Virus record (IMG/VR): IMGVR_UViG_3300036403_000012
Location: 1-31,967 of that record
DNA from: a virus
Strand: one strand, 5' to 3'
Length of the DNA: 31,967 nucleotides
The position numbers and the translations under genes were made by a program. Shown one piece after another: positions 10,383 through 14,339 of this stretch. The notes beneath the pieces are model-generated. The model had not been told where the DNA came from. It searched no databases and saw only the letters and a program-made list of their open reading frames with translations. Position 1 is the first letter of the stretch. Every line of letters starts with the position of its first letter.

Positions 10383-10519
10383 AACGACTCGGATTCAAGT
10401 GCACCAAGAGCCTTCCAGGTCACCAAGATTGCCTCGTGTGCCATCCTGCGATCAAGGCAGGAAAGGCAAAAGACCGGAGGGACGCGAGGCGCGAAATGCA
10501 AAGGCAGGTGAAGCCATGA
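10379..10519 (+). CDS. Small basic Cys/His protein, 46 aa
   Basis: ATG 10379 overlaps TGA 10380-10382. The N-terminal half has C8, H15, C18, C21 and H22, a possible zinc knuckle (C-x9-C-x2-C-H). The C-terminal half is a highly basic helix rich in Lys and Arg (K-D-R-R-D-A-R-R). Both features suggest nucleic-acid binding. No family is recognised. Confidence 0.6.
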   Translation: MKRLGFKCTKSLPGHQDCLVCHPAIKAGKAKDRRDARREMQRQVKP

Positions 10520-10695
10520 GCCAACCATCCGGCAGCACCGGAGTGTTGGAGCAGGTAGCCAGCGCCTACATCGGCTCCGCGCTCTTCGACCGCTTGGCCC
10601 GCAACGTGGGCACCGAGGGCGCGATCCGCGCCGCGTATCACCGGCTCCTCGCGGAGCAGCACCAGGAGAGGGCGCGATGGCAAAGGAGCACATAA
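10516..10695 (+). CDS. Hypothetical helical protein, 59 aa
   Basis: ATG 10516 overlaps TGA 10517-10519. The product is short and helical with no cysteine pair. Its last 19 nt overlap the start of the next gene. No motif is recognised. The coupling to both neighbours is the main support for expression. Confidence 0.5.
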   Translation: MSQPSGSTGVLEQVASAYIGSALFDRLARNVGTEGAIRAAYHRLLAEQHQERARWQRST

Positions 10696-10868
10696 CGATT
10701 CACCAGCTCCCCGGCAGCAAGACCGTCACGCTCTACTGCGGGCGCTGCACGGGCGCGCTGCACCTGGCGCTACCCGTGCCGGCCTCGGAGCTCGTGGAGG
10801 CCGTGGAGCAGTTCAGCGGGCGCCACGGCGCGTGCAAGGCCGAGGGAAAGCCGGTCGGGCCGTTCTAG
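10677..10868 (+). CDS. Small protein with CxxC knuckle, 63 aa
   Basis: ATG 10677 follows GAGAGGGCGCG and overlaps the previous gene by 19 nt. The product begins as beta strands (I-T-I-H-Q-L-P-G-S-K-T-V-T-L-Y) leading to C-G-R-C (Cys21, Cys24), with a later Cys52 and His49 that might complete a metal site. It is the last gene before the 97-bp gap that precedes the replication genes, and ends in TAG. Confidence 0.55.
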   Translation: MAKEHITIHQLPGSKTVTLYCGRCTGALHLALPVPASELVEAVEQFSGRHGACKAEGKPVGPF

Positions 10869-10897
10869 TTGCCTGCACGGCTGAACAGGCGTAGAAA
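10869..10897 (+). promoter_or_regulatory. Candidate promoter of the replication module
   Basis: TTGCCT (10869-10874, four of six) and TAGAAA (10892-10897, four of six) are separated by 17 bases. The inverted repeat GCCTG...CAGGC (10871-10875, 10886-10890) lies inside it. The match is moderate; its position in the only gap before the initiator gene is the main support. Confidence 0.35.
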
Positions 10898-10903
10898 GAC
10901 GAC

Positions 10904-10934
10904 GCCCCCGGAACGCGACCAACGCTCCGAGGGC
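10904..10934 (+). promoter_or_regulatory. Inverted repeat in leader of initiator gene
   Basis: GCCCCCGGA (10904-10912) and TCCGAGGGC (10926-10934) pair over nine positions with one mismatch around a 13-base loop. It lies just after the candidate promoter and 31 bases before the initiator start. No T tract follows. It could be an operator or an attenuating leader structure. Confidence 0.4.
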
Positions 10935-10965
10935 AGAAACCAAACAGCACCGAGAAGCCTACGCG

Positions 10966-11643
10966 ATGCCCGCGTGGTCGTCAACGTGCGCTCGCATGGA
11001 TGACGTTATGGCAGGATGGTACAAACAGCACACAAGCGAGCTCGCCTCGCTTGAAGCGTTCGCGCAGTGCGGACGCACTCACCTGGTGATCGCGTGGCTT
11101 CGCGTGACGCGGTGGACGGTCGACCACGAGAGCGACGAGCTTCCCGAGGCGCTCCAGGCTGACGCGGTGGAGCTCGAGGCGGCCGGTCTCCGTACGACCT
11201 TTGCGGCGAGGTGCAAGAAGCTCCTCGACCAGCGCGAGGCGATGGCAGCAAAGCGTGAGTCGAAGAGAGCTCACGTGAGCTCAAGTGAGCTCACATCGGA
11301 TCACGTGAGCTCAAGTGATCATCAAGACAAGACAAGACAAGACAAGACAACAAAGACCAGAAAGACCAAACCACACGAGATACCGGCCGGCTGGGCGCCG
11401 ACCGAGGAGCACGAGGCCAAAGCGAAGGTGCTCGGCCTAACGCTGGCCTATCAGGCCGAGACGTTTCGGCTGCACGCCGAGACGCACGCTCGGCTCTGCG
11501 CCTCGTGGAATGGAGCCTTCTCGCAGTGGCTCACGAAGGCCGACCCGGCTCGCGAGCCGGCTCACGTCAAGGCGCGTCCCGTCGTCAAAGGCTGGGACGA
11601 CGGCGACATGATGCTCGGCATTCCCAAGGGCAAAACGTCGTGA
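10966..11643 (+). CDS. Phage replication initiator, lambda O / DnaT-like
   Basis: The 225-residue reading starts at ATG 10966; ATG 10996 and ATG 11008 are possible shorter starts, and no strong ribosome binding site decides. Residues about 15-95 form a helical N-terminal part. A low-complexity Ser/His/Asp/Lys/Thr linker follows (about 100-136), encoded by repeated DNA. The C-terminal part (about 138-191) has P-x-G-W-x-P and later F-x-x-H then W-N-G-A-F-S-Q-W-L, the DnaT/primosomal-type block found in phage initiators. In lambda, protein O binds repeats inside its own gene and hands the helicase to the origin. The next gene encodes a DnaB-type helicase, which fits the same role. Confidence 0.72.
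   Translation: MPAWSSTCARMDDVMAGWYKQHTSELASLEAFAQCGRTHLVIAWLRVTRWTVDHESDELPEALQADAVELEAAGLRTTFAARCKKLLDQREAMAAKRESKRAHVSSSELTSDHVSSSDHQDKTRQDKTTKTRKTKPHEIPAGWAPTEEHEAKAKVLGLTLAYQAETFRLHAETHARLCASWNGAFSQWLTKADPAREPAHVKARPVVKGWDDGDMMLGIPKGKTS
11267..11372. other. Candidate replication origin inside the initiator gene (iterons plus AT-richer tract)
   Basis: An exact 18-bp repeat, TCACGTGAGCTCAAGTGA, occurs at 11271-11288 and 11301-11318, 30 bp apart. It overlaps the perfect palindromes GAGCTCACGTGAGCTC (11267-11282) and GTGAGCTCAC (11285-11294), and the inverted pair GATCAC/GTGATC (11299-11304, 11315-11320). Right after it come five AAGAC copies (11324-11348) and a purine-rich, AT-richer stretch to about 11372 in an otherwise GC-rich genome. 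Iterons followed by an easily melted tract within the linker region of an O-like gene is the arrangement of lambda ori. Confidence 0.55.
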
Positions 11644-12983
11644 GCACCCTTATCGACCTCGACGCAGAGCTTGCGGCCTGCGTCTTCGTGACCTCGATTG
11701 CCGCCAAGGCAAGAGCGCAGCTCTTCGCCACCATCGAGCCCTCTCACTTCGCGCAGCAGACCTGCGCGGATTTCTGGCGAGTCGCCAAGGCCTTCGAGGC
11801 CGAGGGCACGAGCACGGCCTGGCTTCGCATCGTCGAGGCCCTCCAGGCCAGCAAGGCCTCGCACCCGGCAAGCCGTTCGTGGCGGGACTGGTTCCTGGCC
11901 ATCCGCGACCAGTCTGCGCCATACCTCGCCCGCGGCGGGCTGACGCCCGACGAGCGGGCCGAGGAGCTCGAGCGCGACCTACGCAACGCGCACGAGCGGC
12001 GCGAGATTCGCCGCGTGTGTCTCGAAGGCGCCGCACGCGCCGAAGAGAAGCGCGAGGCCGGCGACGCGCTGCGCGTGGAGCTCGTGGAGCGCCTCGTGCC
12101 CCGCACCGTGCAGGCCGACGAGGGCCTGGTCTCGACGCGCGACGCGGCGAGGCAGCTCCTCGAGCGCCTATCCTCGCAGACCAGCGCAGCGACGCCGAGC
12201 CCGTGGCCGAGCGTCGACCGGCACGCCCCGCTAACACCTGGTAGCCTCACGGTGCTCGCGGCCGCCACGGGCGTCGGTAAGACCGTGCTCGGCATCCAGT
12301 ACGCTCGCGCGTGCCACGCCTCCAAGGCGTGGTGCATGTTCGTGGGCCTCGAGATGGGGCCTGACCAGAACCTCGCGCGCGTGGCGCGGCAGGAGTACGG
12401 CGTAGAGCACCGCCCCGAGCTCGTCGTCCCGACGCTACGCGCCCGGGCCTATTCGGAATTGACGCAGGCCATCGCGCGCCTCGTGAACGATGGCTTTCGG
12501 TGCGAGTGGGCGTGCAGCCCGGTGCAGAGCACCGAGCACGTAACGATGCGCGCCAAGCTCCTCGCGGCACGGCTGGCCGAGGAGGGCGAGCGGCTCGGCC
12601 TCATCGTCGTAGACTACCTGGGCATTCTCTCGCCGACCAGCGAGGACACGCGGCAGCGCCGCGAGCGCCACGAGCTCTTCGGCGAGTACGCGCTGCGGCT
12701 CAAGCTCCTCGCGCGTCAGCTCAAGGTGCCCGTCGTCGCGCTGGCTCAGCTCAACCGCGAGGCCGAGAAGGCCGGAACAAAGGCTACACGCGGAATGATC
12801 GGCGATTCCTATGCCATCCTGCGGCACGCGGATAACGTGCTCATCCTCACCCGCCCGATCCCGGGCACCGAAAGCGAGGGCGCAAGTGAACCGCGCCTCT
12901 CGATTCAGAAGGCGCGCGAAGGCTCGCCAGCTTGGTTCACGCTCACCTGGAACGAACAGCACGAACGATACGAGGGGCCATGA
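11640..12983 (+). CDS. Replicative DNA helicase, DnaB family (SF4)
   Basis: GTG 11640 overlaps the initiator's stop (TGA 11641-11643). The 447-residue protein has an N-terminal DnaB-like helical domain (about 5-130), a linker helix, and a RecA-type motor domain. Walker A is A-A-A-T-G-V-G-K-T (207-215), Walker B is L-I-V-V-D-Y (321-326), and L-K-V-P-V-V-A-L-A-Q-L-N-R (361-373) is the conserved DnaB H3 block with Gln370. Length matches phage and bacterial DnaB. It unwinds the fork 5' to 3' and would be loaded by the upstream O-like protein. No primase is seen in the window, so the host's may be recruited. Confidence 0.92.
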   Translation: MSTLIDLDAELAACVFVTSIAAKARAQLFATIEPSHFAQQTCADFWRVAKAFEAEGTSTAWLRIVEALQASKASHPASRSWRDWFLAIRDQSAPYLARGGLTPDERAEELERDLRNAHERREIRRVCLEGAARAEEKREAGDALRVELVERLVPRTVQADEGLVSTRDAARQLLERLSSQTSAATPSPWPSVDRHAPLTPGSLTVLAAATGVGKTVLGIQYARACHASKAWCMFVGLEMGPDQNLARVARQEYGVEHRPELVVPTLRARAYSELTQAIARLVNDGFRCEWACSPVQSTEHVTMRAKLLAARLAEEGERLGLIVVDYLGILSPTSEDTRQRRERHELFGEYALRLKLLARQLKVPVVALAQLNREAEKAGTKATRGMIGDSYAILRHADNVLILTRPIPGTESEGASEPRLSIQKAREGSPAWFTLTWNEQHERYEGP

Positions 12984-13213
12984 TTGACCTTGGAAAACAT
13001 CACTTGAACCGCATCGACGCTATCGCAGCAGCCACGAAGGAAAGCGACGTGCTCGCGCGTGCGCTCCTCGAGCTCGGTCCGACGCCGAGCGCCGGGGCGC
13101 TGACCGATTGGCTTTGGCAGGAGAGCATCCGATGCGGGCTCGAGAAGCGCAGCGACTTCCGCGACAAGGCCGCAGCCGTCAAGGCGTGGCAGGCCGTCGA
13201 GGTGACGCCATGA
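12980..13213 (+). CDS. Hypothetical protein between helicase and resolvase, 77 aa
   Basis: ATG 12980 overlaps the helicase stop and the gene ends in an ATGA overlap with the resolvase gene. The product is helical with W-L-W-Q-E near the middle and no recognised motif. Its fixed place between helicase and resolvase suggests a replication accessory role, which is inference from position only. Confidence 0.6.
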   Translation: MIDLGKHHLNRIDAIAAATKESDVLARALLELGPTPSAGALTDWLWQESIRCGLEKRSDFRDKAAAVKAWQAVEVTP

Positions 13214-14173: not shown

Positions 14174-14202
14174 TCTACATACGCGCGCGCGCGCGATAGA
14201 AT
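14174..14202 (+). promoter_or_regulatory. Candidate late promoter with alternating-CG spacer
   Basis: TCTACA (14174-14179, four of six -35 matches) and TAGAAT (14197-14202, five of six -10 matches) are 17 bases apart. The spacer is almost entirely an alternating CG tract (14182-14195). ATAGAATCTAT (14196-14206), an 11-bp palindrome, overlaps the -10 box. It would transcribe the packaging and head genes from 14340 onward. Confidence 0.5.
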
Positions 14203-14339
14203 CTATAGAAGGATCGAAGATGGAATGGTTTGGAGATAGAGAAGAGAGAGTGTGAGAGAGAAGGGAAAGAACCTTTTGCAAATGCGAGAGCGTGCTAAGG
14301 GAACGGAAGACCTCACCAGCTCCGAGGAGACCGCCCAGC
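14203..14339. other. Purine-rich non-coding leader before terminase genes (possible packaging site)
   Basis: From about 14208 to 14273 the + strand is mostly A and G, with repeated GAGA units and few pyrimidines, unlike the rest of the genome. No convincing gene is seen. Packaging (cos or pac) sites often lie just upstream of the small terminase gene, so this tract is a candidate, but no cut site can be identified. GAGGAG (14324-14329) near the end is the likely ribosome binding site of the next gene. Confidence 0.4.

Follow-up and report, generated by a model that had tools for sequence, protein, structure and literature searches.

A helically phased array of palindromes in the linker-coding part of a phage replication initiator gene, a probable embedded replication origin

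An array of palindromes within an initiator gene

The uncultivated virus record IMGVR_UViG_3300036403_000012 supplies a stretch of 31,967 bp – here called the window, meaning the whole stretch analysed – in which a replication initiator gene carries an array of short palindromes in the part that codes for its interdomain linker. From its sequence, we consider it highly probable that this segment is a phage replication origin embedded within its own initiator gene. The longest open reading frame of this gene begins at 10966, upstream of the ATG at 11008; we set the start at 11008 because it is conserved in the homologues L002-L007 (loci compared with the window are given L numbers). The gene and array are as follows.

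11008..11643, + strand: replication initiator gene, 211 amino acids, start ATG 11008 (MAGWYKQHTSE...)
11267..11318, no strand: iteron array, five units with a 10-bp period, from repeat and tandem-repeat tables, a synonymous recoding null and conservation
11271..11278, no strand: unit 1, TCACGTGA, perfect palindrome
11281..11288, no strand: unit 2, TCAAGTGA
11291..11298, no strand: unit 3, TCACATCG, in the phase where an intact TCACGTGA would give an in-frame TGA (frame taken from the coding start at 11008)
11301..11308, no strand: unit 4, TCACGTGA, perfect palindrome
11311..11318, no strand: unit 5, TCAAGTGA, abutting the AAGAC tract at a distance fixed in L002, L003, L006 and L007

The basic repeat is an 8-bp palindrome of the TCACGTGA type every 10 bp, or one helical turn, across 11271-11318, in the order TCACGTGA GC TCAAGTGA GC TCACATCG GA TCACGTGA GC TCAAGTGA. 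It falls within the coding sequence 11008-11643, as repeats do in initiator genes of the lambda O type. An earlier note on this DNA had pointed to two exact 18-bp copies of TCACGTGAGCTCAAGTGA (11271-11288 and 11301-11318, 30 bp from start to start) and to perfect palindromes of 16 bp (GAGCTCACGTGAGCTC, 11267-11282) and 10 bp (GTGAGCTCAC, 11285-11294), all of which are present. It had also proposed a 30-bp period, and this does equal ten codons and keep the frame, but we reject it as the fundamental period: the true unit is one 8-bp palindrome per 10 bp, present five times, and 30 bp is a harmonic (three units, ten codons). Because 10 bp corresponds to 3.33 codons, successive units take the three reading frames in turn.

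These repeats are not due to chance. The window contains the double motif TCANGTGANNTCANGTGA two times, whereas none of 100 dinucleotide-preserving shuffles contains it; nowhere in the window is self-similarity at 10 bp and 20 bp stronger than at the array site; and the only other TCANGTGA in the window is at 13000.

Conservation of the array at the DNA level

A small set of eight relatives of the window initiator was found by protein similarity (27-81% identical), and all eight keep the array. We compared each gene with a recoding null in which the protein is fixed and synonymous codons are drawn from that phage's own usage (20,000 recodings). The window linker has four sites, all in 10-bp phase, against a null mean of 0.066 and maximum of 2, and all nine family members exceed their own null, the worst P being 5.5e-4 (L008). 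Where the amino acid is the same, codon identity over the array and tract in L002-L007 is 1.00, 0.96, 0.88, 0.93, 0.89 and 0.89, compared with 0.73, 0.59, 0.46, 0.53, 0.56 and 0.52 over the N-terminal domain; for the most distant relatives, L008 and L054, the values, drawn from few sites, are 0.78 and 0.64 versus 0.38 and 0.36. The arrays of L006 and L007 are longer by three units (30 bp), in frame, and the array remains anchored at a fixed distance from AAGAC. The linker peptide varies (VSSSELTSDHVSSSD, VTSRDITEHHVTSRD) while the 10-bp DNA pattern persists. The expectations of the earlier note that the repeats would be retained in homologues as the linker protein diverges, and that the DNA is selected beyond its protein sequence, are thus borne out, synonymous recoding almost never yielding an array.

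Units in the stop-codon phase

In one of the three phases an intact unit reads xTC ACG TGA and ends translation, and the third unit of the window is in this phase. Units were tallied over 28 initiator-type or replication genes: an intact TCANGTGA is present in 73 of the 95 that fall in a permitted phase, and in none of the 37 in the stop phase. The stop-phase units lose the right half and keep TCAC at 95, 100, 100 and 92% per position (background 20-36%), percentages that are somewhat inflated because part of the set was collected by a pattern requiring the first three bases of the third unit, and because units were extended only while 5/8 bases matched. The set also holds near-duplicates (window/L002, L004/L005, L006/L007 and L028/L040). 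L021 is the clearest case, with nine units arranged as TCACGTGA TCACGTGA TCACGGGA three times over. The window family – nine genes found by protein similarity – behaves likewise, with ACAC replacing TCAC in the two most distant members. The absence of an in-frame TGA is forced; what is informative is the 10-bp phase and the left half-site that runs on through the broken unit.

An unbroken non-coding array, TCACGTGACGTCACGTGACGTCACGTGACG, is present at 1080-1125 of L035, upstream of a probable terminase gene, and every unit in it is intact, as expected without coding constraint. We dropped it as a clean non-coding control because of this location and because its function is not known.

The AAGAC tract and the helicase gene

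Two further features adjoin the array and the gene.

11323..11380, + strand: AAGAC-repeat tract, proposed unwinding element, the longest T-free run of the window (58 nt)
11640..12983, + strand: DnaB-like replicative helicase gene (Pfam DnaB_C, E 1.2e-31; phrog_19, 3.1e-34)

As the earlier note described, the tract adjoins the repeats, and the segment 11317-11366 ranks second lowest in duplex stability among the 50-mers of the window (z 4.1), so that a region predicted to melt easily lies beside the array as at lambda O-type origins. In many alpha-type genes the coding strand of the tract following the array is strongly enriched in C instead of in A and T, and the shared property may therefore be strand asymmetry and not AT content alone. 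The helicase gene, also recognized in the earlier note, begins at 11640, directly after the end of the initiator gene; a helicase or loader gene likewise adjoins the initiator in the lambda O arrangement.

Domains of the initiator

An AlphaFold2 model built from nine sequences (mean predicted local distance difference test score, pLDDT, of 70) predicts a folded domain, a disordered linker and a second folded domain, followed by a tail.

11008..11274, + strand: N-terminal domain of helices only, residues 1-89, with a long basic helix KKLLDQREAMAAKRESKRA at its end; proposed to bind the iterons
11404..11538, + strand: C-terminal helical domain with a putative DnaT-like motif (predicted helices 133-177); proposed to recruit the helicase
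11575..11640, + strand: C-terminal tail RPVVKGWDDGDMMLGIPKGKTS, present in L002, L004, L005, L008, L011 and L012, absent in L003 and L006

Predicted helices of the N-terminal domain span residues 3-89 (pLDDT about 84-91 over residues 11-80), with the long basic helix at 65-89, and this domain is 65-88% identical in L002-L007. Residues 93-120, encoded by the array and tract, are predicted to be disordered (pLDDT below 50). In a fold search the DnaT C-terminal domain (2ru8) is at rank 5 with a non-significant score (E 6.6), and a profile of the basic helix aligns with CREB (1dh3), also not significantly (E 0.54). Profile matches to designed repeat proteins were treated as compositional.

The N-terminal domain has no significant match in Pfam, PHROGs or PDB, and the window initiator, which has no Pfam match, shows no homology to lambda O. 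Its homologues match the PHROG replication initiation families 1032/1408 (best 7e-11), while the window initiator itself reaches only 0.04 against phrog_1032; relatives match PHROG initiation and primosomal families, and the O-like PHROGs 345/678 are matched by single members of the alpha-type set only.

Exchange of initiator modules

L003-L007 share the array with the window and have N-terminal domains 67-81% identical to it, and their C-terminal domains (20-31%) cannot be aligned with it, or nearly so. The adjoining gene differs as well: L004 and L005 have a phage DnaB 82% identical to that of the window, and L003 and L006 have a DnaC-like helicase loader instead (phrog_50 at 1.7e-7 and 8.6e-13). 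In L008 the DnaB is 96% identical to the window's and the initiator N-terminal domain only about 26%. L011 and L012 have DnaB proteins 82% and 98-99% identical over the part covered. Their N-terminal domain is unrelated to that of the window, and the site of the array holds another repeat, ACCCGTGAC, with spacings of 11 and 22 and a GA-rich tract. The type of repeat thus goes with the N-terminal domain. Judged from these sequences, the array and tract move as one with the N-terminal domain, C-terminal domains are swapped, and the linker appears to be the place where the modules are joined. Homologues that lack repeats here and have a cluster elsewhere, which the earlier note had named as evidence against its proposal, were not seen.

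The tail VVKGWDDGDMMLGIPKG (11575-11640) is common to initiators with a phage DnaB gene next to them, even where the C-terminal domain differs (L004/L005), and is absent where a DnaC-like loader is the next gene (L003, L006); L054 has DnaB and only a remnant of the tail. The tail could possibly be a DnaB contact, or simply be linked to the DnaB gene.

Interpretation as a replication origin

What the sequences show directly is the array and its conservation as DNA, the pattern of stop codons, the exchange of modules and a helicase gene next door; binding by the window initiator, melting and origin activity are inferred. The N-terminal domain would bind TCACGTGA-type units, the palindromic ones probably being bound by dimers and the degenerate half-site units by one subunit. 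As adjacent units are one turn apart, the bound proteins would sit along the same side of the helix and assemble into an initiation complex, which would open the adjoining AAGAC tract, and the C-terminal domain, held on the disordered linker, would recruit the phage DnaB or, in relatives, the DnaC-like loader. One palindrome per turn is denser than the iterons of lambda and suggests a compact binding mode.

Several observations weigh against an origin at this site. The GC-skew check proposed in the earlier note gave no extremum at 11.3 kb (the maximum is at 15.2 kb and the minimum at 28.4 kb), a less stable stretch lies at 14195 upstream of the terminase genes, and no fold match marks the N-terminal domain as DNA-binding. 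Such arrays also occur outside replication genes, as in L035, and the near-identical alpha-type trio L088-L090 is spaced at 11/12 bp.

The array could instead be an autoregulatory operator through which the initiator or another phage repressor limits its own transcription, the origin being elsewhere; short palindromes are typical of operators and the protein could bind its own gene. However, the array lies some 260 bp into the gene, it is not preceded by any other multi-unit array and only one further TCANGTGA is present (13000), no sigma-70-like promoter was found at 10400-11700, and the array is coupled to helicase or loader genes and, in the window family, to a low-complexity, strand-asymmetric tract; we regard an operator as quite unlikely. 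Use of the array by a host or other protein, such as ParB or another segregation protein, seems to us very improbable. The core of bacterial parS contains TCACGTGA and so agrees with the core of the window unit, and tandem short sites occur in plasmid centromeres. The 16-bp parS consensus is TGTTTCACGTGAAACA, and its outer bases are absent from the window (GAGC-TCACGTGA-GCTC, compared with TGTT-TCACGTGA-AACA in parS), so that only the central 8 bp agree; moreover, the repeat type follows the initiator N-terminal domain, and no partition gene was noticed among the ORFs annotated, which are not all of those in the window.

A further alternative is that the DNA has no function of its own. Interdomain linkers are often of low complexity and tandem duplications arise easily, and the repeats could come from selection on the protein for a repetitive linker (SSSELTSDHVSSSDH, VTSRDVT) or from a recent tandem duplication. 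The recoding null and the codon identities show that neither explains the array, since the choice of synonymous codons is far more constrained than codon usage would make it and codon identity in the array exceeds that in a conserved domain; in addition, the linker peptide shifts under a constant 10-bp pattern and stop-phase units lose the right half-site only. We give this explanation scarcely any weight.

A replication origin within the initiator gene remains our preferred reading. A broader proposal is that a wide group of phage initiators reads short CACGTG-type palindromes compactly, in the manner of basic leucine zipper (bZIP) proteins, through a basic helix that runs into the linker encoding the palindromes, with one dimer per turn and with gene and origin forming a single module reassorted by recombination in the linker. 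Short palindromes have been described as characteristic of recognition by bZIP proteins, and there is a report of a bZIP-like regulator, RptR, in bacteria (PMC12255303). We think this broader proposal unlikely, and a bZIP-like mode is speculation because the CREB match is not significant.

Comparison with known systems

By analogy, the segment is most likely a new variant of the in-gene origins of lambda O and SPP1 gp38. As in lambda gene O, the putative origin is in the middle of the initiator gene, with iterons beside an AT-rich region and a helicase-handling gene next. The term lambda-like used in the earlier note therefore fits the architecture, but neither the iterons nor the initiator are those of lambda: the units, 8-bp palindromes spaced at 10 bp, are shorter than lambda iterons, the N-terminal domain matches nothing in Pfam, the adjoining tract consists of (AAGAC)n, the following gene encodes DnaB itself rather than a P-type loader, and the need to avoid a stop codon spoils one unit in three. 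In lambda, dimers of O bind the inverted-repeat iterons (PMC5043065), and among lambda and Stx lambdoid phages iteron number varies in frame, 4 versus 6 (PMC7466680).

In SPP1 oriL, gp38 binds direct repeats inside gene 38, where there is also an AT-rich unwinding element, and the phage encodes a loader and a DnaB-type helicase (PMC6316719). Going by this description, the window resembles oriL in having putative initiator-site repeats inside the initiator gene; SPP1 differs in having a second origin (oriR), and none was seen in the window. Iteron plasmids such as P1, F and RK2 have arrays in phase with the DNA helix beside an A+T-rich region, plasmid iterons are generally helix-phased, and an origin can lose its activity when the phase is upset (PMC5043065). 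The window array is similarly phased, and unlike these plasmids the window has no Rep-type Pfam match.

Actinophage RepA-like initiators (Lucky10 gp63 and Mycobacterium prophiGD102-1 gp35) have a related C-terminal domain (tblastn 7e-3 to 7e-5 over part of the protein), and an origin in or next to repA has been proposed for mycobacteriophages (PMC7157519). The gp63 linker of Gordonia phage Lucky10 has TCGCGA palindromes with a 10-bp period followed by a GGAACAGG tract, and on sequence grounds gp63 appears to be a cultivated model of the same architecture. These actinophages differ from the window in the N-terminal domain (helix-turn-helix, HTH, by annotation in Lucky10) and in iteron sequence, and their origin is unmapped at base level. 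The gp63 array lies at 1358-1427 of L095, with a second cluster at 1146-1170 and then the GGAACAGG repeats. In prophiGD102-1 a triple repeat of 11 bp lies earlier in the gene and the GGAACAGG tract is present as well, and Bbif-1, another of the cultivated actinophages whose C-terminal domain is related, has 24-bp repeats.

Wider occurrence and significance

Scanning IMG/VR for the pattern TCANGTGANNTCANGTGANNTCA without regard to gene content returned 35 loci. By reading of translations, 25 of them lie within replication genes (initiator-type in 23 cases, primase-polymerase/helicase in 2), and the other 10 lie elsewhere. A GTDB scan matched 19 stretches, only some of them in initiator genes and several probably chance or unrelated. 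The array type is present in alphaproteobacterial genomes (Novosphingobium, Methylobacterium, Methylorubrum, Chelatococcus and Sphingomonas), where the copies are presumably in prophages. Ten relatives were picked by N-terminal protein alone, and seven have TCAC repeats at 10 bp (P 0.025 to 0.00015), the spacing in the near-identical trio being 11/12 bp; a model of relatives picked in this way predicts a short helix, a long helix (17-55) with a basic end RRRANDRDRQNRRR, and then a disordered linker. INPHARED, searched with four alpha-type or HTH-type initiators, gave no match, and no earlier description of the array type was found in open-access papers.

In-gene origins are known from few model phages. 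Sequence alone yields here a signature that is both strong and general: an array in phase with the helix, in which the damaged units are mainly those that would create a stop codon. With such a signature, the origins of uncultivated phages could be read from their sequence. It predicts the site that each protein domain recognizes, and would explain the joint swapping of initiator and origin while the helicase-recruiting end changes. Origin finding in non-model phages, long difficult, becomes testable by synonymous recoding.

Additional features

At 14195-14271, immediately upstream of the terminase genes, is the least stable stretch of the window, in which 56 consecutive nucleotides lack C. 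Upstream of the initiator, a hairpin GCCCCCGGAACGCGACCAACGCTCCGAGGGC is present at 10904-10934, about 75 nt before the start, and is preceded by GTAGAAAGA. It has no Rfam match and may be an RNA element or a DNA inverted-repeat operator. The hairpin recurs upstream of the initiator in L002, L004-L007, L011 and L012, and 5 of its 10 predicted pairs have two-sided changes that preserve pairing. In L026 and L034 a primase-polymerase/helicase-like gene has TCARGTGA repeats, spaced at 10 bp, in the segment between its domains. A gene lying some 1 kb downstream from the L018 initiator encodes a phage protein of 183 amino acids that, read by eye only, resembles the C-terminal DNA-binding domain of DnaA (GIGRIFGNRDHTTVLHAVRKI).
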